From Sorangium cellulosum (GTDB lineage: Bacteria; Myxococcota_A; Polyangia; Polyangiales; Polyangiaceae): a stretch of 62,555 nucleotides of DNA. Positions 2,580 to 33,418 of this stretch are shown here, one piece after another (position 1 is the stretch's first letter; the number at the start of each line of letters is the position of its first letter). The position numbers and the translations under genes were made by a program. Where the stretch lies: assembly GCA_020720045.1 (NCBI GenBank), contig DYPH01000019.1:1-62555 (forward strand), given 5' to 3'. The notes beneath the pieces were generated by a model. The model made no database searches, was not told the DNA's origin, and saw only the letters and a list, made by a program, of their open reading frames with translations.

Positions 2580-5500
2580 TCAGGCGCGAAGCGTCGGCGG
2601 TCGGCTCCGCGCATAGTGGGCGGCGAGCGTCTGCCCCTCCGCGGCGAGTTCGGTGAAGGTCACCGCGAAGCCGGCGGGGCGGTCGCCGTCTTCGTCTTGG
2701 GTGGCGCTCACAATGCCTCGTCCGGCCGCCGTGGCGTCGCCGGGAAAGACAAGCTGGAGGGGGACGTCGCTGCCGAGGGCGGGCGCCTTCGCGTAGGTCG
2801 CCACGAAGACGCCGATGATCTTCCCGTCGACGTTGCAGGTGAAATTCGTCGCGTCGCCAACACGAAGATCGACGGCTATCGGCGTACCTCCGCGCGCCTG
2901 GACGAGCTTCTCAAGTCGCGCAAGTTGTTCCAAAATCGCCTGGGGCGCCTGCGCGTTCGGCCCACCGGCCGCCCCGCCCGGGGAGCGCGCGACCGCATCG
3001 GCCATCGCTTGGCCAAGCTGCATGATCGCTTCAAGTTCGACGAGTTGGGGCGATGGCGCGGCGAGCGTCACATTCACGCTCTGCGCGTTCGGCTTCCCGA
3101 GGGCATCCCCGATGCGACCGAGCGCCGCCGCGAAGGCCTCGGCGCCGTGGGCTTCCCGAGCCGCCCCGCTCGCCGTTGCCGCCGCGACCGCCTTGTTGAG
3201 CACCTGAAGCTGCTCTTCAAGGCCGCCAAGCGTCCCGGTGATCCGCGCGACCGGGTCGTCGCCGTCTTTGCCGCCCCGCTTCGTGCGCAGATAGGTCTCT
3301 TTGATGGTCCCCCAGCGGGTCCGCTCGGCGTCGGTCATCCGCTCGCGGAGTTCAGCGAGCTTCAGGAGGTTCTGTTCGGCGCCGGTCGCGAGCGTCTGGG
3401 ACTCGGCAGCGTAGTGCTCGTCGATGGCGCGCTCCAGCTCGTCGTCGGTCATCACCGGCGCGAGCTTCTGCACGATCTTGTTCATGTTTCGGTAGCTGCC
3501 CTGGAGCTTGAACGGCGGCTCGCTCCGGTAAGCGTCCTCTTGGGAGGCCGAGCGAATGTAGGCCTGGTTCACCGCGAGGAGGACCTTCTGCACCTTGGCA
3601 ACGAGGCGGAGCATCGCGAGGAGGTCGGTCAGTTCGGCGCCCGAATAGCCGTGGGAGAGTTCAGAGGCGGGAATGCTCTCGCCTTGGGCCATCCGTACGA
3701 GCTTGTACAAATCGGCCGGCGCACGGCCGGAGAGCGGTGCGAGCGCCCGGTGGGACGTGAGCGCGTTCTCCAGGTAGCTCAGCGCGAAGAGATCCTGTTT
3801 GCCGCCGAGGACTTCGCCGAGGTTGTAGGTATCGGCCCGGTTGGCGAGCATGTCGGGGATTCGGAAGCGGGCGCCGCTCTCCGTGTACGGGTTCGCCGCC
3901 ATCACGACGCAGAAGCGCTTCCCGCGGAAATCGTAGGTCCGTGAGCGCCCATTCCAGACGCCTTCGACCTTGCGCTGCGCGTCGCACAGGCTGATAAATT
4001 TCTCGAGAAATTCCGGGGAGGTGTGCTGCACGTCGTCGACGTAGAGCATCACATTGTTCCCCATTTCGAAGCCGAGATTGATCCGCTCGACCTCCTGGCG
4101 GGCCGTCAGGCTCTTGCACTCGGCCGGGTCGAGGGAGTGGACGTCGTGGCCGAGGGCGGGGCCGTTCACCTTCACGAAAACGAGCCCGAGGACGCTGGCC
4201 ACGTACTCCATCAGCGTCGTCTTCCCGTAGCCGGGCGGCGAAACGAGGAACAGGAGCCCCATGCGATCGGTGCGCTGGGCGGCCCCCGTCGCGCCAATTT
4301 GCTTTGCCAGATTGGTACCGACGAGCGGAAGATAGACTTCGTCAATCAATCGGTTTCGTACGAAGGACGAAAGCACCTTCGGGACGAACTCTTCGAGGCG
4401 GAGGCGGGCGCGTTGTTCGCCGAGGAGTTCGCTCCGGAGGCGCCGGTAGCTCCGGAAGCGCCCGGCGATGACCGTCTCGAAGTGGCGAACACGATTCAAA
4501 TATTCGGCGAGCTCGAGGGCGATGGCGCCGTCGCGGATACGCGGGTGGGTGCCGAGGAGGCCGGTGACTTCGACGGTCGTCTCCGCGGAGAGGGTCTCGC
4601 GATCGACGCGGCCATCGGTGAGCAAAATGGCGGCAATTTCCGGTGCATAATTGCCAAGATGAGGGAGTGAGTGCTCAAGACTACGCGCATAGTGGAGCGC
4701 GAGCCGCGCCGCCTCTCGCGGGTGACTTGCGAGGAGCTCAAGCTCGTCCTGGAGGGCCCGGTACTCGCCTGCATCGTCGAGCTTGCGACGGAGGAGCTTC
4801 GCCCCCTCGTCGGAGGCACGCGCGACCGGGAACCGGGGAATTTTCTGGGCGAGCGTCTCGACGAGGAGATCGGCGCTGTCGCCGAGGATTTCGGCGGTCG
4901 TCGGGAAGTCGTCGAAGCGCGTTGCGTACGCGGAGACGGCGCCGAGGAGCTCGCGTTTGAGCGCCGCAACGCCACGGCCATCGGCAAAAAGGGCGGCCAG
5001 CCGGGCGACGCTTTGGGCTTGGCGAACGAGGACCGCACGCGGCTCGGCGGGGAGATCACAGACGAAGCGGAGCGCGATGGCGCGCGCTTCCGGGGCGAAA
5101 CGGAGGGGGCCGGCGGCGTCGAAGGCGGGGAGGACGTGGGTGAGGATCCGGGTCGCGTCGACGTCGTGGACGCCGCGCTCGTAGCCCTCATCGAGGCGCT
5201 GGGCCGCCTGCTCGGCGACGAGCGGACCGAGGCGATCTTCGCGGATGGCTGCCCGCAAGGTGGCAAGGGGAGGGGAGGCGGGGCGGCCATCAAATGCATT
5301 CTGCAATAGTTGGAACGCCAAGTATTCCCCCCGATAGACCTCCGCCCCTTCCGACGCGAGCGACTGCTCCCAGACCTCAGCGAGCGCTTCGAAGGCGGGG
5401 AGGCGCTCCGGCGCCGCCTGGGCGAGCGGCGCGTGGAAATCGGTGCCGGTGAGGTGGAGGATGAGTTCGGCGGTCGGCCCGGCGTCTCCGCCCGCTTCGT

Positions 5501-8201
5501 CGCCGCGCCCAGCAAATTCCCGGGGCGACGCCGACGGACGGGACCTTGGGACGAGCACCAGGTCGATGGCGCTCTTCGTCACCGAGAAGGTGAAGCCGCC
5601 GAGCTTCACGCCGTCGCCGTCGCTCAATTCGCGGGCGTCCCGCAGCTTGCGGACGGCGTCCTGGCGGGCCGTCTTCAGCCGTGTGGCGAGTTCGTCGGCA
5701 CGGACGTTTTCGCCGAGCGCTGCGAGCTTCGTCGCCGACTCGGTGACCTTTCGCACCATCGGATCGGCGGCGAAATAGGCAAGAAGATCCTCTTCTTTCG
5801 TGAACGTAGCCGCCTTCCGAGCGACCCCTTGGAGGAGGCGCTCCCCCCCTTCCGCGAGCGTCGCCGCCCGCTTGTGGCGTTCGTCGGTCAGCGTCTGCCG
5901 GCGGGCGCCAAAGGTCTCCGCGACCTCCTCCCGCTTCTTGTCGAGCTCAATCGCGAATTCGTCGAGTTCGCCAAACCGGGTTGCGAGTTCTTCCACACGC
6001 AGAAGGAGCTTCCCGAGCTCGGCGTCGCAGGCCTCCGGCGTCGTGCAGGCGCTCACCGCGGCGCCGACCGCCTGGGCAAACACACCGAGCTGGACGGCGA
6101 GCTCGGCGCGCCCCTCGCGACCGTACAATTCCTTGCGTCGCGTCTCGAAGACCGCCTTCGCCCGGTTGGCGACGGCGAGCGTCCGCGACAGCTGTTCGAG
6201 GACGCGCGTCCGCTTCGTCGGGTCGTCGACGTCCAGCCCGGAGATGGTCTCGCCGAGGAGCAGAAGTCGCGAATGAAGCTCCTCCAAACGGGCTTTGAGA
6301 GGGGCAAGTTCGACGGTCTTTTCGGTCTTTTCGATCGCCGTCGCGGTCGCCTCGAGGGCCGCAAGGACTGGCGCCCACGCGCCGTCGGCTTCGAAGAAAT
6401 CGACGCAGGCGATCCGCACCTCGTCGAAGCGCCCATCGACCGCCTTCTCCAGCGCATCGATTGCCAGGAGATCGACGTAGCGAAGCTCCCGAAGAGCCAC
6501 GAGTTTTCCCCGCTGGGACCGGAGCGCTGCGAGCGCCTCCAGGAAGCTCTCCGCCGAGGGGGAATCTTCAGGGCGCTTCCCACGAAGCACCGACTGCTGG
6601 GCGCTGGTCGCGTCGACGATCGCCGCCGCCGCCTGGGCCCGGTAGGCCTCGACTTTCTCAAACTCCTGAAGAATTCCGTCGGCGCTCTTTCGGACTTCCT
6701 TGAGCGCCGACTTGAGATCAAAAGCCTCTTCGTGACCGACCCAGTAATGATCGTCCATCGCGCGATTGGTCGCCGCGACGAGCTCTTCGTAGGTCCGCCG
6801 CGTCGGCTCTTCGGTCAGCGCGAGCTTCCGGATCGCGTAGGCATCGCCAATTCCCCGCACGAGCGACGCATTGCCGACCTTCGCCAGGTAGGAGGTCGCC
6901 CCGCGCGCCCGCGCCGCCGCATCCGCATTCTCGAGGGATTGAAAGGGGGTCTTCCACAATTGAAAAGGATGAACGCGCGTCGGTTCAGCCCCTTCAGCAG
7001 CGCGAAAAAGGGCGAGTGTTCCGTCGGAAAAAAGGCTGTAGCCGTGGGCGCGCATCGGCGCCCCGAGCTCCTTCGTGATCCCGTTGTAGGGGAGCAGCAG
7101 ATAGAGCCCCTCATCCTCCCGGTAGAAGATGTAAAGTACATCTTCTCCGTTGGGGGCGCGGAGCACGCTTTCGAACTGCATCCCGACGGTGTCGGTGTCG
7201 ACGACGCGCGCCTCATCGGCGGCGACGTAATGGCCGCCCGGGAAGAGGATCCCCTGATCCTCGGGGAGCTCTAGGCAGGCGGCGCCGATGGCATCGATGC
7301 GGCTGACGCGCTTTTTGAGTGTATTATACACCAAATAGCGGTGGTTCTCCTCCCGGTAGGGGAGCACCTTCAGGAGCAGCAATTTTCCTACGCGCGCGTA
7401 GGAGATCTCGGCGTCGTCGAGGGTCTGGTTCGGGTCGGTGACCGGCTCCCGCCAGATGCCGCGCCCGTCCTTCGTGTTGTTCTCGACCTTGACGGTGAGG
7501 TCGCCGCCGATCGTCTCGACGAAGACCTCGTCGAGGACGTTGATGTGCGGGTGGGCCCCCATCACCTGCTGCTCGCGCCCCGTCTTCGTCCAGCGGAAGG
7601 CGTGGCTCGGCGGCGGGACGTTGTCCTCCTCGCCGCGCGCATCGATGTAGGCAATTTCGCCGCGCGCATCGACGGAGAAGCGGAAAACGCGCACATCGGA
7701 GAGCTTTTCCCCGATTTGAACGATGATCAGAAGGCGCGTGTCAGTGCGCCGAAGCTTGAGGATTCGCGCATCTTTCGCGTAGCGAAACGCGGTCGTGAAA
7801 TCAGAAACAAATGCGGGATGGTCGAGGAACGTCCCGGCGAGCGGAAGCGGCTCGAGCTCGGGGGCCTCGTCGGCGGTAAGCTTGTAGAGTGCAAGCACAT
7901 CGCCGACCGTGGGCTGGCTCTTCAGGCCGAGCGTGACGTGGAAGGCGAAAAGGAGCAGTCGCGAGTCGTGACCGAGCGCGACGGAGACGAGGTCGCGGGC
8001 GTGGGCGGCGTTTGCTGTTCGAATTCGAGTGCTTCGCGTGAGTTCAAGCGTCGACGCGCCGTAGAGCGCCTTCCGCGCGTCGTTGAGCTGTTCCGCGCGG
8101 CCCCCCAGGGTCGCGACGTTGGCCAGCAGGCGCCCTCGGACGACCTCATAGCTCCCCGCATCGACGTCGTTCGTGGCCGGTTGTTCGCGCGAATCACTCA
8201 T
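2580..8201 (-). CDS. Giant AAA+ ATPase ('DNA repair ATPase' type) of the flotillin cluster
   Basis: A protein of 1873 residues. The N-terminal ~430 residues are beta-rich, residues ~480-900 contain long helical coiled-coil stretches, ~950-1290 look alpha-helical, and a AAA+ module follows: Walker A SPPGYGKTT at 1321-1329, Walker B MLYVDD near 1385-1390, and a sensor-1-like MAANPY segment. The last ~95 residues resemble the beta-barrel of PilZ domains of the Myxococcus paralogue type but lack a clear RxxxR / (D/N)xSxxG pair. Homologues are often named 'DNA repair ATPase' in databases; I know of no experimental basis for that. I chose ATG 8201 because GAGG lies 6 nt upstream; the longer frame from 8297 would translate a strong terminator-like hairpin. 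It sits 98 bp downstream of the flotillin gene. Probable remodelling ATPase acting with the membrane proteins encoded upstream; this role is inference. Confidence 0.9.
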   Translation of the reverse strand: MSDSREQPATNDVDAGSYEVVRGRLLANVATLGGRAEQLNDARKALYGASTLELTRSTRIRTANAAHARDLVSVALGHDSRLLLFAFHVTLGLKSQPTVGDVLALYKLTADEAPELEPLPLAGTFLDHPAFVSDFTTAFRYAKDARILKLRRTDTRLLIIVQIGEKLSDVRVFRFSVDARGEIAYIDARGEEDNVPPPSHAFRWTKTGREQQVMGAHPHINVLDEVFVETIGGDLTVKVENNTKDGRGIWREPVTDPNQTLDDAEISYARVGKLLLLKVLPYREENHRYLVYNTLKKRVSRIDAIGAACLELPEDQGILFPGGHYVAADEARVVDTDTVGMQFESVLRAPNGEDVLYIFYREDEGLYLLLPYNGITKELGAPMRAHGYSLFSDGTLALFRAAEGAEPTRVHPFQLWKTPFQSLENADAAARARGATSYLAKVGNASLVRGIGDAYAIRKLALTEEPTRRTYEELVAATNRAMDDHYWVGHEEAFDLKSALKEVRKSADGILQEFEKVEAYRAQAAAAIVDATSAQQSVLRGKRPEDSPSAESFLEALAALRSQRGKLVALRELRYVDLLAIDALEKAVDGRFDEVRIACVDFFEADGAWAPVLAALEATATAIEKTEKTVELAPLKARLEELHSRLLLLGETISGLDVDDPTKRTRVLEQLSRTLAVANRAKAVFETRRKELYGREGRAELAVQLGVFAQAVGAAVSACTTPEACDAELGKLLLRVEELATRFGELDEFAIELDKKREEVAETFGARRQTLTDERHKRAATLAEGGERLLQGVARKAATFTKEEDLLAYFAADPMVRKVTESATKLAALGENVRADELATRLKTARQDAVRKLRDARELSDGDGVKLGGFTFSVTKSAIDLVLVPRSRPSASPREFAGRGDEAGGDAGPTAELILHLTGTDFHAPLAQAAPERLPAFEALAEVWEQSLASEGAEVYRGEYLAFQLLQNAFDGRPASPPLATLRAAIREDRLGPLVAEQAAQRLDEGYERGVHDVDATRILTHVLPAFDAAGPLRFAPEARAIALRFVCDLPAEPRAVLVRQAQSVARLAALFADGRGVAALKRELLGAVSAYATRFDDFPTTAEILGDSADLLVETLAQKIPRFPVARASDEGAKLLRRKLDDAGEYRALQDELELLASHPREAARLALHYARSLEHSLPHLGNYAPEIAAILLTDGRVDRETLSAETTVEVTGLLGTHPRIRDGAIALELAEYLNRVRHFETVIAGRFRSYRRLRSELLGEQRARLRLEEFVPKVLSSFVRNRLIDEVYLPLVGTNLAKQIGATGAAQRTDRMGLLFLVSPPGYGKTTLMEYVASVLGLVFVKVNGPALGHDVHSLDPAECKSLTARQEVERINLGFEMGNNVMLYVDDVQHTSPEFLEKFISLCDAQRKVEGVWNGRSRTYDFRGKRFCVVMAANPYTESGARFRIPDMLANRADTYNLGEVLGGKQDLFALSYLENALTSHRALAPLSGRAPADLYKLVRMAQGESIPASELSHGYSGAELTDLLAMLRLVAKVQKVLLAVNQAYIRSASQEDAYRSEPPFKLQGSYRNMNKIVQKLAPVMTDDELERAIDEHYAAESQTLATGAEQNLLKLAELRERMTDAERTRWGTIKETYLRTKRGGKDGDDPVARITGTLGGLEEQLQVLNKAVAAATASGAAREAHGAEAFAAALGRIGDALGKPNAQSVNVTLAAPSPQLVELEAIMQLGQAMADAVARSPGGAAGGPNAQAPQAILEQLARLEKLVQARGGTPIAVDLRVGDATNFTCNVDGKIIGVFVATYAKAPALGSDVPLQLVFPGDATAAGRGIVSATQDEDGDRPAGFAVTFTELAAEGQTLAAHYARSRPPTLRA

Positions 8202-8253
8202 AAGAACCTCGAAGACCTTGACGGCGGGCCCACAATGCGGGGCCACAAACAAA

Positions 8254-8286
8254 GGGTCCGAGCGCCGTTTACTGGCGCTCGGACCC
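8254..8286 (-). terminator. Strong hairpin between flotillin and ATPase genes
   Basis: A perfect 13-bp inverted repeat (GGGTCCGAGCGCC / GGCGCTCGGACCC) with a 7-nt loop lies 14 nt after the flotillin stop. On the minus strand it is followed by TTTGTTTG, so it has the form of an intrinsic terminator or attenuator. It may limit read-through into the ATPase gene, whose start at 8201 lies 53 nt further on, or stabilise the 3' end of the flotillin mRNA. Confidence 0.7.
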
Positions 8287-8299
8287 GCGGAAGACAAAG

Positions 8300-10285
8300 C
8301 TACTTGTCCGACTTAATCAGTCCGAGAAGCTTCTGCTTCGCGTCCTTGTCCCCCTTCGTGAACCGCTCGATCAAAGAGGCCAGTTCGGGATCGGCACCGG
8401 CGGTGAGGTCCTTTGCCACCGCGCGGAGCGTCGGGCTCTCGCCGAGGGCCCCCTCGATCGACTGGCCGACGCTGATCGCCTTCACGTAGCGATCGAAGAA
8501 CGCGCCGTCGCCGCCGACGATGTTGAACTTCGCATTTGCGAGCGATTTCCCGAGGATCTCCGCCTGGGAGTGGGCAAGTTCCGTCCGCGCTTTGATCGAC
8601 TCGAGCTGGACGGTGCGGTCCTTTTCGAGGGTGAGGCGGAACTCTTCGTGGACGCGGGAGCTGTCGTCGAGGACACGCATCGCGTCGGCCTTCTCGCGAA
8701 TACCGGCCGCTTCGGCGGTCATCTTCTCGCGGACGACGGTCGCTTCGGCGACGCCGAGCTTCTGGATGGCGTCGGCGTCGGCGTTCTTGACGGCGATCCG
8801 CGCAAATCCCGATTTTTCTTCCCCTTGTGCGCTCGCGCTCGCCTTTTCGAGGGCGATGCGCGCTTCGACGAGCCCCTGCTTTTCAAAGGCGATGGCATCG
8901 GCCTCACGGACGCGCGCCTGGGCGAGCCCCTTCGCCGCCTCCTCGGCCTGGACGCCTTCGGCGATGCGGATCTTCGCCCGGGCGACCTTGTCGGCCGTCT
9001 CAAGGTCGGCATCGGCGACGAGGATGCGTTCCCGCGCCTTGTGCTTCGCCGCCTCTTCTTGGGCTTCCGCCGCCTTCACGAGCTTGACGAGCGTCTCTTG
9101 GGCCTGCGCTTCTGCGCCGAGGCGGACGACTTCCTTCTCGCGATTCGCCTGGGAAATCGTGCGGAGATCCTTGATCTGTTCTTCCTCGGCGGCGACCGTC
9201 TTGTCGACGGCGATGCGGGCGCGGACGACGTCGGCGATCTCCTTCTTCTGGAGCTCCAGGTCCTTGTCGCGGGCGAGCACGGAGACCTGAACTTCCCGTT
9301 CGCGGGCGACGACTTCGAGCTGGCGTGCCTTTTCGACGCGCTCCACTTCAATGGCGACCTCGCGCTCCTTGTTCTTCTGGGCGATCGCAATGCCGCGAAG
9401 CTTCACTTCCGCGGCGATCGCAGTCTCCTCTTCCGTCTTCTGCTGGAGGAGTTGGGTACGCTTCTGCTCTTCAAGGGCGAGGCGCGCCGCTTCGTTGGTT
9501 TCGCGGTTTTGGGCGACCGAGATCTCGCGATTCTTCTTCGCTTCTGCCTCTGCTTTCCGCTGTTCAAAGCGGAACATCGCTTCGTCGGCGGAGAGGTTCT
9601 GGCTCCCCATCTCCATGCGCTCCTTTTGACGGAGATCGTTCGTTTGAACGTTCCGTTCGACGGTCAGCGCCGTGATCTTTCGGATGCCTTCGGCGTCCAT
9701 GATGTTGTCACGGTCGAGCTCGGAAAGGGACGTTTGCTCCAAGTAGTCGATCGCGGCGTCGTCAAGGATGAACCCGTTGAGGTCCTTCCCGATGACCTTG
9801 ATGATCGCGTCCTTGAACTCGTCACGCTTCGTGTAGAGCTGTTCAAAATCGAAGTGTTTACCGACGGTTTTGAGCGCTTCCGAGAACTTCGCCTGGAAGA
9901 GATCGACGAGCGTCCGCGGATCGCTCGCACGCGCGCAACCGATCGACTGCGCGACCTTGAGCACGTCTTCCGAGGTCTTGTTCACGCGAACAAAGAACGT
10001 AACGTTGATATCTGCACGAATGTTGTCGTTGCAGATCAAACCTTCTTTTCCGCGGCGATCGATCTGGATCGTCTTTACAGAAAGATCCATTACTTCGGCC
10101 CGGTTCACGACGGGGAGCACGAGGGCGCCGGTGAAGGTCACGTGCGGATCGGCGCGGGAGGTGTTGATGATGAGCGCCTTCCCCTGTTCCACCTGCCGAT
10201 AAAAGCGGGAAAAGAGGGCGCCGATCCCGAAGACAATGATGAGTCCGGCGACGAACAATAGAACGAAAGGGAGGTACTCGTGCAT
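8300..10285 (-). CDS. yqiK: Flotillin / SPFH-domain protein, YqiK-like
   Basis: A 661-residue protein with one N-terminal membrane segment (residues ~5-27), an SPFH/Band 7 domain (~30-210; note the VEQGKALIINT entry and the ADINVTFFVRV strand) and a very long charged Ala/Glu-rich coiled coil (~230-560) ending in a conserved flotillin C-terminal helix region. This is the layout of YqiK-type flotillins, which oligomerise at the inner membrane and organise microdomains. Upstream are a YqiJ-like protein and a channel-like protein; downstream is the giant ATPase. YqiJ-YqiK pairing is established in enterobacteria; pairing with the ATPase recurs in other bacteria to my knowledge. A palindrome 36 bp upstream could be an operator. 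Length fits the family (~550-700). Confidence 0.93.
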   Translation of the reverse strand: MHEYLPFVLLFVAGLIIVFGIGALFSRFYRQVEQGKALIINTSRADPHVTFTGALVLPVVNRAEVMDLSVKTIQIDRRGKEGLICNDNIRADINVTFFVRVNKTSEDVLKVAQSIGCARASDPRTLVDLFQAKFSEALKTVGKHFDFEQLYTKRDEFKDAIIKVIGKDLNGFILDDAAIDYLEQTSLSELDRDNIMDAEGIRKITALTVERNVQTNDLRQKERMEMGSQNLSADEAMFRFEQRKAEAEAKKNREISVAQNRETNEAARLALEEQKRTQLLQQKTEEETAIAAEVKLRGIAIAQKNKEREVAIEVERVEKARQLEVVAREREVQVSVLARDKDLELQKKEIADVVRARIAVDKTVAAEEEQIKDLRTISQANREKEVVRLGAEAQAQETLVKLVKAAEAQEEAAKHKARERILVADADLETADKVARAKIRIAEGVQAEEAAKGLAQARVREADAIAFEKQGLVEARIALEKASASAQGEEKSGFARIAVKNADADAIQKLGVAEATVVREKMTAEAAGIREKADAMRVLDDSSRVHEEFRLTLEKDRTVQLESIKARTELAHSQAEILGKSLANAKFNIVGGDGAFFDRYVKAISVGQSIEGALGESPTLRAVAKDLTAGADPELASLIERFTKGDKDAKQKLLGLIKSDK

Positions 10286-10320
10286 GGCTTACGCGCTCGT
10301 TTCCTTGATCCGGGCGCGAA

Positions 10321-10336
10321 GCGTCACAGGTGACGC
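10321..10336. promoter_or_regulatory. 16-bp palindrome upstream of flotillin gene
   Basis: GCGTCAC-AG-GTGACGC is a perfect inverted repeat with 7-bp arms, 36 bp upstream of the flotillin ATG in a 218-bp gap that separates it from the YqiJ-like gene. Position and symmetry suit a dimeric regulator's operator near a separate promoter for flotillin. No particular regulator can be named from this alone, and a 7-bp arm can occur by chance in high-GC DNA. Confidence 0.3.
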
Positions 10337-10503
10337 ATTCCCCCACGGATCGTAGCGCGAACGCTCGCACGCATAAGGCCGTCACGGAACGCAAATCGGA
10401 CCGTTCAGCAGCCGGAAGTTGTCGCGTTTTCCCGGCAACTACCCCCGTGCGCACCGATTCCTTTGCGGTGGCGGCGGCACCCGGAGGACGCGCCGCCGCG
10501 CCG

Positions 10504-11226
10504 CTATTTTGCTGCGTCGCGGAGCGGCTCTTCGAGGGGGGCGACGATGTATTCCTCGCGCTCGGCGTCCCAGCCGAGGATGACCGCCTGCTCACCGCGC
10601 TTCATCGTTCCGCCCTCGACGCGCACGCGAAGGACGAGCTCGGCGCCGGTGTCGGGGACGGTCGCCTCGCCAAAGCGGTCGTTCGCTTCGCCGGTCCGCA
10701 CCGTGCAAATCGCGCCGACGAGGTCTTTTGCGGTCTTTGCGCGTCGCGGATTCAGGAGCGGCGCGAGGGGGAGGGTGACCGCTTTTGTGAGCGGCAGCGC
10801 CAGGAGCGGAGCCCCAAGAAACGTAATGGCAAGTTGGGCCGCGGCGGGGAGCGCATGGCCGGTTTTTGCGGCGGCGAAGAGGATCCCGAAGGAGAAGATC
10901 CACGAGAAAAACGCGAGGATAGAGCCGGAGACGGTGATCGGCACGTTCCGCATGCGGAAGAGGCCGAGGACGCCGTGGCCGGCCCCATCGCCGTCGATGT
11001 CTAGGTCGGGGCCGTCGACGTCGACGTCGGCACCATGACCGACGCTCTCGAGTGCCCCTTTGACGGCGCCGCTCGTCCCTTCCGCGGCCCCCTCGGCGCC
11101 CCCGTCGACCCCTTCACCGAGGTGAATCACGCCGGCCATCACGAAGAGCCAGTAGACGAGCGAGACGGCGACGACCCCGCTCCATACGACGACGGGAAAC
11201 GCAAAAAGTGGAGCGAGATCGGTCAC
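10504..11226 (-). CDS. yqiJ: YqiJ-like OB-fold inner-membrane protein (NfeD-related)
   Basis: A 240-residue protein with three likely membrane segments (~8-33, ~85-108, ~112-140) and a C-terminal soluble domain (~150-240) with the alternating strands of an OB fold (DLVGAICTVRTGEANDRFGEATV...). A Gly/Asp/His-rich acidic loop at ~34-80 links the first two segments. This matches the YqiJ family, the NfeD-like partner of YqiK flotillins, thought to help anchor or regulate the SPFH oligomer. Its ATG overlaps the stop of the channel-like gene by 4 nt (ATGA), so the two are translationally coupled. A 218-bp gap follows before the flotillin gene. Confidence 0.85.
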   Translation of the reverse strand: MTDLAPLFAFPVVVWSGVVAVSLVYWLFVMAGVIHLGEGVDGGAEGAAEGTSGAVKGALESVGHGADVDVDGPDLDIDGDGAGHGVLGLFRMRNVPITVSGSILAFFSWIFSFGILFAAAKTGHALPAAAQLAITFLGAPLLALPLTKAVTLPLAPLLNPRRAKTAKDLVGAICTVRTGEANDRFGEATVPDTGAELVLRVRVEGGTMKRGEQAVILGWDAEREEYIVAPLEEPLRDAAK

Positions 11227-11699
11227 AAAGCACCTTCCGCGGCGCTTGCCCCGACGTCACCCGCCGGGCGAGCTTCCAGAAGCGCAGCGATGCGATCGAG
11301 GCGCGCGAGGAGCTGAGCGTTGTGGGCCTCGGTCTCCGCCTGGGCCGCCTGGGCCGCCGCTTCCCGGGCCGCCCGCGGCGCGTCGAGGGCGCGCGGGGTG
11401 AGCGCCGGGCCGACGATCATGATGAACGAGGCGATCTGTTTGCCGCGGTCGGTCATCGCGAAGATGTCGCAATAGCCGACGGAGAGGCACGTCGAGATAA
11501 AGACGAGCGCGTCATTCAGCGACTTCACCTTCGGATTGACGCCATGCTCCGCTTTGTAGAACAAATGCGAAGCGATGAGCGTCATCGTCACCAGCGTCTT
11601 TGCCGGGTCTTCGTCGGCCGCTTCCCGAAGCCATTCGGTCGCGTCGTCGACAAGATCGGGGGCGAGCAGACCGAGGAGCGGGGTGAGAGCCGGATTCAC
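11223..11699 (-). CDS. Small K+-channel-like membrane protein with altered filter
   Basis: 158 residues. The segment LSVGYCDIFAMTDRGKQIA followed by a hydrophobic helix closely follows the two-TM potassium channel pattern (pore helix, TVGYGD filter, P-T-x-x-GK/R, inner helix), with a preceding hydrophobic segment ending FYKAEHG as outer helix and LNDALVFISTCLS as pore helix. The filter Gly of GYG is Cys here (GYC). The last ~50 residues form an Ala/Glu-rich amphipathic helix likely to mediate assembly. It is first in the cluster and overlaps the YqiJ-like start by 4 nt. Family assignment rests on motif reading and is fairly confident; whether it conducts ions, and which, is open. Confidence 0.7.
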   Translation of the reverse strand: MNPALTPLLGLLAPDLVDDATEWLREAADEDPAKTLVTMTLIASHLFYKAEHGVNPKVKSLNDALVFISTCLSVGYCDIFAMTDRGKQIASFIMIVGPALTPRALDAPRAAREAAAQAAQAETEAHNAQLLARLDRIAALLEARPAGDVGASAAEGAL

Positions 11700-11938: not shown

Positions 11939-12562
11939 ATGATTGTTGGAGACCCGTCGGTATTCGCTATTGAGTCTGGAATCTCGCGTGCCTACGAGCG
12001 CGCAAGCTTCCGTGCCCTTGGCTTCTTCGTGATTCACCTGGGTGGAATCGTCTACGGAGTCAAAGCCCCCGATGCCACGCTTCTCGCGTGCTCGTTCGAC
12101 CAGGTTGGGAAACGAATTGTGTCCCGGGGGGAGCACGAAGCGTTTTTTTCCTGCCACCACGACTCGGGCGAGATTGCTGACGCCGTGACGTCGGCGATTT
12201 ACGGAGAAGCGTCGGATGAAACAGCCGCAGACGGTCGCCACCGGGTCGACGCAGCTCGCTGGCTCGGCGTCTCGGAAACTGAGCTCCGAAGAGTCATTTA
12301 TTCAAATCGTATTGTGTGGGCTCCGGACGGGGATGAAGCGTTTGATGACGGGAGCAGCGTGTTGCAGTTTGACGTCGAGAATCGAGTTCGTCTTATTGGA
12401 TTTAGGCGAAAAGACTATCGTCACGAGCCGTCTTCTCTTCAGGACATCTGGCTTGAAGCTGATTCATTCTACCGCACTTTGTCCGAGTGGCAGACGGAGT
12501 TTATCTCTCTGTGGATGGCAGCGCCCAAGGAGCCTGCGGAAGCCGAACTAGGGCAAGACTAA
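11939..12562 (+). CDS. Imm42-family immunity protein
   Basis: 207 residues beginning MIVGDPSVFAIESGI, the characteristic opening of Imm42 immunity proteins (usually MIxGDPxxFAIxxxI), followed by a beta-rich body with a VYG strand and charged C-terminus ending in EAELGQD. Imm42 proteins protect against toxins of polymorphic toxin systems. Base composition drops markedly against the flanking genes, consistent with horizontal acquisition. No toxin, Rhs, VgrG or CDI gene adjoins it in this window. Start is ATG; the Shine-Dalgarno sequence is weak (GCAAAAGCG). Family recognition comes from the N-terminal signature and length; no search was run. Confidence 0.7.
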   Translation: MIVGDPSVFAIESGISRAYERASFRALGFFVIHLGGIVYGVKAPDATLLACSFDQVGKRIVSRGEHEAFFSCHHDSGEIADAVTSAIYGEASDETAADGRHRVDAARWLGVSETELRRVIYSNRIVWAPDGDEAFDDGSSVLQFDVENRVRLIGFRRKDYRHEPSSLQDIWLEADSFYRTLSEWQTEFISLWMAAPKEPAEAELGQD

Positions 12563-30671: not shown

Positions 30672-32483
30672 TTACAGGACGCGAACGCGGTCGTCGTTGC
30701 CCCCGTCCGATGGCACTGGGGCTGCCGCCGGCGCTTCGGCCCCCCAGAGCCCCTGGCGGAGCCCTTCGAGCTTGCTGCGAACGTCGGTCAGCCGCGCCGC
30801 TTGGGTATCGAGGGTCGCTTTCGCGGCCGTTTCATCGACCGCTCCGTCGGCGCGTGCCGCCTTGGACGCGGAAAGCACCTCGAACACTTCCCGTTGCAGT
30901 TCCTCGCTCGTCGTGACGACCCACGACTCCAGCTTCTGGGCGAACTGATCAATCATTTCATCCAGTTTCGGTGCGACGCGCCCCGCGACATCCCGCACGA
31001 CTTGGGGGGCGAGCTCCTTCGCGCGCTTCTTGTATTCTGCATCGACCTTGTCCTTAAGGACGAAGGCGAGGACCGGTGCCGCCGCAAGGAGGACCCCGGC
31101 AAGGAGCAGATTGGTGAACAGCGCGCCGAGGCCGACGGCGAGGAGCGCGGCGATCCCGATGTCGTACTTGAACGTGTCGACGTGGACGTCGAGGCGATGC
31201 TGGTCGGCGCCGAGCACATCGGCTACCCGCTTGCCGGCGTCGTGGGCGTCGTCCTTGACGAGCGCGATGGTTCGCTCGGCGAGGTCTTCCAATTTTTCAG
31301 CGATTTCCTTCGCTTCTGCCTCGGCCCAGCGCTTGAAGGTATCTTCGAGGAACGCGGGCAAGTACTGGCCGAGGTCCTCGCGCTTCGCGCCGTCGATGAC
31401 CGACGGGAGCTTGCCGACGAGGTCGTCGACGAAGCGGTCGAGGTCCTTCCGGGCCCCCGCCTTGATGCCGCCGATCGCTTCGCGGAGCTCAAGTCGTCGT
31501 TGCTCCAGCGTCCCCGTCTGGCCGGCAAGGTCCCGTTCCAGCAGCGCAATTCGCCGATCGAGCTCTTCGGTCTTCATCGTGACGGCGCGCCGGCGGGCGT
31601 CGAGCCCCTTCCGAAGCATCGTCTCGTGGGCGAGGCCGCCGCCGATCGCGTTGTCGAGAAGGATCCGTCCCCGCTCCTCGGCAAGGAACGCTTCGAGGTG
31701 GGCGACGAGCTCGGGCATGCCGCTCTCAAAGCGCCGCCCGGCAAGCGCCGTCTCCGCACTTACGGGGAAGAGCACTGGCGACTTGACGAGCTTCCCGAGC
31801 TGCTCTTTCGCATAATCAAAGGCTTCTTTGCGCTCCTCTTCGCTGAGGATGTCCCACTTCGTAATGACGAAGACGATCTTGTCGCGGGACGCGGCGAGCA
31901 GCTTCTCCTGAAGGAAAACGCGCTCACTCTCTTTCAGGATCTGCCCAGCGTCGAGGAGAAACAAGACGGCATCGGCGCGCGGGATATAGCTGTAGGTGAT
32001 GTCGGCCCGCTGGTGGCTCAGGTCGTTGACGCCTGGCGTATCGACGAGCAGGATCCGCTCCGCGAGCAGCGGCGCCGGATAGCCAATTTCCAAATGATCC
32101 ACGTCGTCCGGAGAACGACCGCCGCCGACCGCGAAGGTCCGCGCGTCCCCAAATGCGATCGGCTCGCGGGTGCCATCGGTGTGCACGACGGTCGCCGTAG
32201 GCTCCTCGGCATGTTTGATGTGATGGATCGTCGCCGTCGTCGGCGTCACGCCGACCGGTAGCGCGCTCGTCCCGAGAAGGGCGTTTACGAACGACGATTT
32301 GCCGTGATTGAACTCGCCGACGACGACGAGGTGAAAGCGATCCTCGTGAAGCTTCTTGACGAGGTCTTTTTCGACCTTCTCCGCGAGCGTTTTTGCCCCG
32401 ACGTCTTGCGCAACTTGGACGAGCTCGGCGAGAATATCGGCAACGTCCTGTTGGCGCTGGCGGTGCACATTCAGCATAGTCAT
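30672..32483 (-). CDS. Bacterial dynamin-like GTPase
   Basis: 603 residues from ATG 32483 (AAGGA upstream). A dynamin-type GTPase domain: G1 VGEFNHGKSS at 55-64, G2 Thr in the PVGVTPTTA loop, G3 DTPG 148-151, G4 TKWD 208-211. A long helical stalk follows, then a hydrophobic hairpin (~IGIAALLAVGLGALFTN...LAAAPVLAFVL) that can insert in the membrane, and a final coiled coil. Such proteins remodel or repair the inner membrane. The upstream gene, 38 bp away, encodes an M48 metalloprotease, and the pair is likely one operon. Longer frame to 32663 overlaps that protease and is rejected. Confidence 0.92.
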   Translation of the reverse strand: MTMLNVHRQRQQDVADILAELVQVAQDVGAKTLAEKVEKDLVKKLHEDRFHLVVVGEFNHGKSSFVNALLGTSALPVGVTPTTATIHHIKHAEEPTATVVHTDGTREPIAFGDARTFAVGGGRSPDDVDHLEIGYPAPLLAERILLVDTPGVNDLSHQRADITYSYIPRADAVLFLLDAGQILKESERVFLQEKLLAASRDKIVFVITKWDILSEEERKEAFDYAKEQLGKLVKSPVLFPVSAETALAGRRFESGMPELVAHLEAFLAEERGRILLDNAIGGGLAHETMLRKGLDARRRAVTMKTEELDRRIALLERDLAGQTGTLEQRRLELREAIGGIKAGARKDLDRFVDDLVGKLPSVIDGAKREDLGQYLPAFLEDTFKRWAEAEAKEIAEKLEDLAERTIALVKDDAHDAGKRVADVLGADQHRLDVHVDTFKYDIGIAALLAVGLGALFTNLLLAGVLLAAAPVLAFVLKDKVDAEYKKRAKELAPQVVRDVAGRVAPKLDEMIDQFAQKLESWVVTTSEELQREVFEVLSASKAARADGAVDETAAKATLDTQAARLTDVRSKLEGLRQGLWGAEAPAAAPVPSDGGNDDRVRVL

Positions 32484-32521
32484 TGGCTTGGATTCCTTCA
32501 AAGAATGGGAGGCGTCTTCGT

Positions 32522-33418
32522 TCACGCATCCCCCTTCAAGAGTAGGCGGACTTTCTCGTCGACTTCCGGCATGGTGAGGCCCCCGGGGCCGAGGTTTGCG
32601 GCCTCCCGATAGAGGGCACTTTCCCCAAAGACGCGCATCGCGAGGACACGCTTCGGCAGCCACGGGTGGCTCGCAAAAACCTCCATATACTTGCCGACGC
32701 CGTCCTTGCCCTCTTCGTACTGTTCGAGGAAGGCGTCCATGTTGAACTCCTCGTAGAGTTTCCGAGAGCCGAGGACGAGCTTGGTCATCGCCTTCGTCGA
32801 AACGTCGAGGTCTCGGGAACAGAGCATACCAGCGCGATCACAAGTGATTTCCGCACGGCGGGACCACGCATTGAGCGCGAGGAGCGCCGGTTGGACCGCC
32901 CACTTCACGAAGATCCCCGCCATCTGGGTGAGGTAGTGGAGCGCGGTCAAGTAGACGACGTGCTTGTTATGGATATGGCCGCATTCGTGGCCAATGACCA
33001 TCCGAAGCTCTTCGTCGGTGTAGTGATCGATCAATGCCGAATGAACCATGATGAACGACTCATCATGGGTGCCATAGGTCGCGGCATTCAAAGAGGCATT
33101 TGCGACGATGTAGAGCTGCGGTGTCGGAATGTGCAGCGTATCGGCGCACTCCTTCGCGATCCGTTGCAGTCGCGGGAACTGGCGGTCGGAAACCTTCACG
33201 GCATTGCCAAGAAGCTCGCTCCGCCAGACCTGCTTGAACATGCGGACCGAACTCGTCACCGCGAGCTCGACGGCGGTCATTCGTGCGAATGCTGCCCGCG
33301 TCGATTGATCGAGGTTGTACGCGTAGGCGTGCCCCTCGGTCTCCGGGCCCCCTCCGAGGTGACTGGAGCGGCGCGCATCGACCCAACTTTTGAAGTCTAA
33401 TTCCGGGAAATCCGCCAT
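32522..33418 (-). CDS. M48-family zinc metalloprotease
   Basis: 298 residues. The zinc site HECGH at 144-148 with the third ligand Glu190 in AWSRRAEITCDRAG is the M48 pattern (HExxH + ExxxDxxG), preceded by the strand FIMVHSALIDHYTDEEL and followed by a hydrophobic stretch (~156-185) that may be a membrane-associated hairpin. Likely degrades misfolded membrane proteins like HtpX or cleaves envelope proteins like BepA. No N-terminal signal. It precedes the dynamin-like gene by 38 bp; shared membrane quality control is inference. Confidence 0.93.
   Translation of the reverse strand: MADFPELDFKSWVDARRSSHLGGGPETEGHAYAYNLDQSTRAAFARMTAVELAVTSSVRMFKQVWRSELLGNAVKVSDRQFPRLQRIAKECADTLHIPTPQLYIVANASLNAATYGTHDESFIMVHSALIDHYTDEELRMVIGHECGHIHNKHVVYLTALHYLTQMAGIFVKWAVQPALLALNAWSRRAEITCDRAGMLCSRDLDVSTKAMTKLVLGSRKLYEEFNMDAFLEQYEEGKDGVGKYMEVFASHPWLPKRVLAMRVFGESALYREAANLGPGGLTMPEVDEKVRLLLKGDA

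Follow-up and report, generated by a model that had tools for sequence, protein, structure and literature searches.

What is a potassium channel-like gene doing beside a flotillin operon? The question is raised by a 62,555-nt stretch of Sorangium cellulosum DNA (contig DYPH01000019.1, positions 1 to 62,555; the whole stretch is called the window below), in which four minus-strand open reading frames (ORFs) encode, in this order, a channel-like protein (11223-11699), a YqiJ-type membrane protein (10504-11226), a flotillin (8300-10285) and an AAA+ ATPase (2580-8297). A first-pass annotation, made from the sequence alone, had described the same four genes in the same order, and the ORF read-out agreed with it in detail: the channel-like gene specifies 158 residues from a GTG start, it overlaps the YqiJ gene by exactly 4 nt, and the ATPase has 1873 residues when read from the ATG at 8201 (2580-8201), or 1905 if the TTG at 8297 is used. 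Many diverged homologues of every one of the four genes occur in the same arrangement, which is therefore far beyond chance.

In this genome the four genes do not form one tight transcription unit, because the YqiJ and flotillin genes are 218 nt apart and a terminator-like hairpin (8254-8286, minus strand; 13 perfect pairs, then TTTGTTTG) separates the flotillin stop codon from the beginning of the ATPase gene. The hairpin was recognised by a consensus match only, of a type whose count in the region was not above that in shuffled sequences, and it is possibly an attenuator. In many relatives only a few nucleotides separate the flotillin and ATPase genes. A scan of the locus for sigma-70-type promoters found nothing.

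The YqiJ-type protein (240 residues) has transmembrane (TM) helices, a low-complexity loop (residues 39-88) and a C-terminal OB domain (163-233). Its match to the Pfam family YqiJ_N (PF21001; E 0.003, 18.1 bits) is below the 23-bit cut-off; the YqiJ partners of a second type of locus, called type b below, exceed it (30-41 bits). The top matches of its predicted structure belonged to the NfeD family (QmcA-YbbJ, 8z5g; 1510-C; YuaF), and the OB domain aligned with 1510-C (3wwv) at Z 11.0 and rmsd 1.7 and with 3cp0 at Z 10.6, other OB folds giving about 6. Judged by this model, the protein is of the NfeD type, with a C-terminal OB domain following the membrane helices. The flotillin (661 residues, with an SPFH domain and a long coiled coil) gave no match to Pfam (Flot PF15975, Band_7) at E values up to 1, and nothing useful was obtained from PDB sequences with either the single sequence or a profile. 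The profile did match the Pfam-recognised flotillins of type-b loci (probability 100, E 5e-47, 398 columns), one homologue in the underlying alignment matches Band_7 at 1.6e-8, and the protein is 54-82% identical to the flotillins of syntenic loci. Profile comparison thus places it as a divergent member of the SPFH/flotillin family.

The ATPase carries PF12458 (DUF3686; E 4e-165) at its N-terminus, PF25472 (DUF7902; E 6e-19), and a C-terminal AAA_5 module (PF07728; E 8e-5) within which the Walker A motif lies (4215-4241, minus strand). Since Walker A (SPPGYGKT), a DD-type Walker B, the sensor-1 Asn and R1455, a candidate Arg finger, are invariant in 20 of 20 homologues, the enzyme is probably active. 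Its C-terminal tail (2628-2813, minus strand) has a weak likeness to TIGR02266 (E 4.5e-4, far below the cut-off) and is present in about two thirds of the homologues and missing from the others. A role in DNA repair was rejected, 'DNA repair ATPase' being a mere database name attached to DUF3686, and on this point the first-pass annotation had been right to look elsewhere.

Three of the four genes correspond to a system that is already in the literature. Ravi et al. (2024; PMC11237479) described operons in which a band-7/flotillin protein and a YqiJ/YuaF protein are combined with a novel AAA+ ATPase that has an N-terminal beta-propeller and a coiled coil. Some of these operons also include a CesT/Tir-PspA pair, abbreviated forms are more widespread, and a role in membrane stress with links to PspA was predicted for them. 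The YqiJ-flotillin-ATPase core of the window, with the same three proteins and the same operon logic, is an abbreviated form of this published, envelope-stress-linked operon; it differs in that the CesT/Tir-PspA dyad is absent from the locus, the two PspA genes of this genome being found at other loci. It differs also in having a channel gene, as no channel is described for that operon class and the only potassium channel in that paper, one with intracellular ligand sensing, belongs to a different operon (of the YjfL/glutathionylspermidine-synthetase type). The channel gene is the new part of the locus.

The distribution of this gene was determined with a channel profile built from five relatives and then from 31, which was run against whole genomes. 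Among 184 genomes of the source organism's order, strong matches to the channel were present in 65, the ATPase in 60, and the second, type-b flotillin (at least 340 bits) in 31. All 65 channel genomes carried either the ATPase operon or the type-b flotillin, and the channel was found in none of the 99 genomes of this set that had neither. The association (Fisher 3e-32; 30 genera) takes no account of kinship, by which such statistics are inflated, the genomes being related and the counts not independent. Against the explanation favoured below, 20 genomes have a flotillin module and lack the channel; in its favour, 28 of the 31 type-b flotillin genomes possess it. The first-pass annotation had named a failure of co-occurrence with YqiJ/YqiK as an outcome that would speak against its reading; in these 184 genomes the channel never occurred without a flotillin module.

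We then considered the surroundings of 69 channel loci. Twenty-nine of these are type b, with YqiJ-like, flotillin and channel genes on one strand; in all 29 the channel lies directly downstream of the flotillin (gap of -19 to +38 nt from its end), and no ATPase gene is nearby. The YqiJ gene of the window type adjoins the channel in 23 of the 69 loci, or 24 with the window itself, 14 of them co-directional. In the other 10 of these 24 the channel gene is divergent and so not co-transcribed, which counts against the explanation favoured below. Where window-type loci are split (as in genomes G118, G119, G137 and G147), the gene that the channel remains beside is YqiJ, not the flotillin or ATPase. 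Seventeen of the 69 channel genes adjoin neither flotillin nor YqiJ, which likewise counts against that explanation; several of these have the ATPase operon on the same contig 24-109 kb away (G019, G066, G068, G170, G171), and one (G041) is 2 kb from the ATPase. Two variants were seen besides: a natural YqiJ-flotillin fusion (locus L131, 1754-3940, plus strand; a 728-residue ORF with YqiJ_N, Band_7 and Flot) immediately followed by the start of a channel reading frame, and a locus with another order of genes, channel, YqiJ-like and type-b-like flotillin (L128, 923-4109, plus strand).

Around the type-b loci no other genuine gene family reaches beyond about 5 of the 18 genera; unlabelled clusters with a wider spread look like chained antisense or shadow ORFs, as judged by eye. 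General conserved synteny was therefore ruled out for these loci, as no other gene recurs as widely, and chance adjacency of the channel and the flotillin module was ruled out by the locus contexts, the co-occurrence and the recurrence of the neighbours. The channel is very probably a dedicated partner of NfeD/YqiJ-flotillin modules. The ATPase is an optional partner of the channel module, and a central place for it is not supported: in 29 of the 69 channel loci the channel is paired with another YqiJ-flotillin operon, near which no ATPase gene lies. The first-pass annotation had proposed a membrane microdomain with a pore-like subunit served by the ATPase; the pore-like subunit in a membrane module is upheld by the co-occurrence, and the central place given to the ATPase is not. 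It had noted neither the altered filter nor the second type of flotillin, nor that the three-gene core is published.

Two other readings were considered. The cluster might be an ATP-driven machine for membrane remodelling or protein quality control, composed of flotillin, YqiJ and the AAA+ protein and linked to PspA, to which the channel would be a client or accessory. The published operon class with its PspA links (PMC11237479), the stabilisation of unfolded proteins by FloA-NfeD (PMC11222466), the PspA genes elsewhere in the genome and the invariant Walker A and B motifs all fit such a machine; but the commonest partner operon of the channel has no ATPase gene nearby and the window locus has no PspA gene, and we consider it improbable. 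A defence machine had also been raised in the first-pass annotation; in an anti-phage system of this kind the channel would be the effector that depolarises the membrane. A pore together with an ATPase would suit the logic of abortive infection, and next to the cluster, divergently from the channel gene, lies a gene (11942-12559, plus strand) whose product is Imm42-like in its N-terminal part (E 9e-12). Nevertheless, none of the four proteins matched PADLOC (which, like Pfam, covers knowledge only up to its date), the neighbours in the window include housekeeping genes, among them those for a tRNA synthetase and for a ribonucleotide reductase of class II, there was no plasmid match, and the operon is tight and stable across genera rather than island-like. 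The defence option was not borne out and is very unlikely to be correct. The window encodes another membrane-remodelling protein, a bacterial dynamin-like GTPase (30675-32663, minus strand; PF00350, E 2e-27).

The family is not confined to this order. An independent scan of 84,980 species with a pattern for the filter region gave 41 loci, 34 of which have a flotillin relative within 10 kb. Most are from Myxococcota (Labilithrix, Minicystis rosea, Polyangium and metagenome-assembled genomes, MAGs), and two Anaerolineales (Chloroflexota) MAGs have YqiJ, flotillin and channel genes in this order; the contigs concerned measure 2.15 Mb and 0.57 Mb, so that small-contig misbinning is unlikely. A 6 kb contig from a MAG labelled Actinomycetota carries flotillin, then a membrane protein of only 104 residues (L130, 5104-5418, plus strand), then the channel; here misbinning is possible. 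Among 301 sampled Chloroflexota genomes no family members were found beyond the known case, the remaining matches being ordinary channels. Weak channel matches in other Chloroflexota and Myxococcota genomes were likewise set aside as ordinary TVGYGD channels with no flotillin in flanks of about 1.5 kb.

Is the protein a channel at all? It matches PF07885 (Ion_trans_2; E 4.7e-6, 26.8 bits against a cut-off of 22.5), and it has a short N-terminal helix, TM1 (32-51), a pore helix (61-72), a filter, TM2 (84-103) and a long cytoplasmic C-terminal helix (109-143). With the profile of the family, KvAP was matched at E 6e-9 and KcsA at about 1e-5. A single-chain AF2 model (pLDDT 90.9) showed the TM - pore helix - filter - TM fold; its best Foldseek match was full-length KcsA, and K+ channel pores superposed on it with Z about 12 and rmsd 1.3-1.7 A over 73-75 residues. 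By Pfam and the predicted fold, the protein is thus assigned to the K+ channel pore superfamily, sharing with KcsA and KvAP the two TM helices, pore helix and filter.

It differs from these channels in the filter itself. In the window the filter codons (11466-11483, minus strand) read S73-V74-G75-Y76-C77-D78, with Cys in place of the second GYG glycine, so that the T-x-G-[YF]-G signature of canonical K+-selective channels is absent (SVGYC) and, going by the sequence, we do not class the protein as a canonical K+ channel. This is a property of the whole family (SVGYx). When 75 members were compared with 27 ordinary channels from the same searches, the pore helix was one residue shorter in all 75 as against 1 of 27, the filter threonine was replaced by serine (T75S) in 72 and none respectively, and the second glycine was lost in 74 and none, its place being taken by A, S, D, C, H, T or N. 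The Trp pair (WW) of the pore helix is also lost. On the other hand, the first filter glycine is kept in 75 of 75, Tyr or Phe in 72 of 75, and the Gly-Pro of TM2 is conserved. The sole member with glycine at the second position (genome G135; L186, 9558-10043, minus strand) reads SAGYGD, and there the Val that normally precedes the first glycine has changed as well.

In a tree of the channels the family forms one clade (SH-aLRT 98) and the ordinary TVGYGD channels another. The partners of type-b flotillins are on the deepest branches, with the window-type partnership apparently nested, more than once in the best tree, in a phylogeny that has few columns and, within the family, low support. An ordinary K+ channel serving general K+ homeostasis and sharing regulation with the flotillin module would be in keeping with the relation to KvAP and KcsA in fold and sequence; yet ordinary channels are this separate clade with no flotillin in their flanks of about 1.5 kb, and the gene was never found without a flotillin module in the 184 genomes, making this reading quite improbable.

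The second filter glycine and the pore-helix Trp pair steady ordinary K+ filters, and their loss could leave the pore closed or non-selective. The main rival explanation is accordingly a dedicated but non-conducting partner, a structural or sensing subunit of the flotillin assembly that might act as a tetrameric anchor or as a sensor of membrane state. The near-universal loss of the glycine, the shortened pore helix and the missing Trp pair all speak for it, as do further filter changes in single members (SVGHTA in G005, TVGT in G357 and AVGFN in G032). A dead pore would, however, be expected to drift more than a family that otherwise conserves its filter and the TM2 Gly-Pro. Furthermore, the pore loops of Trk, Ktr and HKT proteins keep only the first GYG glycine and transport K+ and Na+ (PMC9898762), which makes a working pore of relaxed selectivity plausible, although these proteins belong to another overall family and have four pore loops per chain, as opposed to one here. 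We regard a non-conducting subunit as unlikely.

How might such a pore work with a flotillin? On the membrane, SPFH proteins assemble into large rings or domes with which NfeD proteins are associated, as in QmcA-YbbJ. The flotillin would assemble into a large membrane-bound scaffold, which the YqiJ/NfeD protein may anchor and plug into in the way that YbbJ does with QmcA. The small two-TM protein would form a tetrameric cation pore inside or beside the scaffold and extend its C-terminal helices into the chamber, and the single-glycine filter (SVGYx), being less selective, would probably let both K+ and Na+ through. In response to envelope or osmotic stress the flotillin/YqiJ assembly might then open or block the flow, with the DUF3686 ATPase as an optional remodelling partner in this lineage. 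Most likely the channel would be a cation pore of four subunits and relaxed selectivity that flotillin/YqiJ hold or gate in envelope stress. The assembly, the tetramer, conduction, gating and the role in stress are all steps of our inference; the pore fold is a predicted one, and the conserved filter change and the genetic partnership were observed directly. We put this explanation as a whole, a flotillin microdomain equipped with its dedicated pore, at about an even chance, and conduction gated by the flotillin scaffold at somewhat below that.

Known SPFH-NfeD systems resemble this arrangement up to the channel. E. coli YqiJ-YqiK and B. subtilis YuaF-YuaG/FloT (SPFH2-NfeD2; PMC2636767) have an NfeD-type OB protein beside a flotillin, but neither a channel nor an ATPase gene is described for them, and the window flotillin is too divergent for Pfam. 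The E. coli QmcA-YbbJ complex (PDB 8z5g), whose NfeD subunit matches the predicted YqiJ fold, offers a template for an SPFH and NfeD assembly, though one from another SPFH subfamily and with no channel subunit. Control of an ion channel by an SPFH protein has been thought to occur in eukaryotic stomatin-ASIC (PMC3390797) and was proposed for P. horikoshii PH1511/PH1510 (Yokoyama and Matsui, 2005, as cited in PMC13086221); those channels are unrelated to that of the window or none is named, whereas here the channel gene is within the bacterial locus itself. No earlier report of a bacterial flotillin operon with a channel was found in a search of open papers. It is conceivable, on balance a little doubtful, that these proteins are an undescribed family of flotillin-dedicated cation channels with a single-glycine filter, physically housed and gated by a bacterial SPFH scaffold and recruited by two types of flotillin, also outside Myxococcota.

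The function of bacterial flotillins is still debated, and control of ion channels by SPFH-NfeD pairs has been proposed with no actual channel to work on. The compact loci described here, three or four genes long, allow a direct test of this proposal, since their channel-like gene was never found apart from a flotillin module. For the K+ filter, too, the family amounts to a natural experiment, in which one KcsA-like lineage has dispensed with the second GYG glycine and one residue of the pore helix and kept the rest. These results suggest that, in many soil myxobacteria and a few other bacteria, flotillin scaffolds work with a channel of their own.
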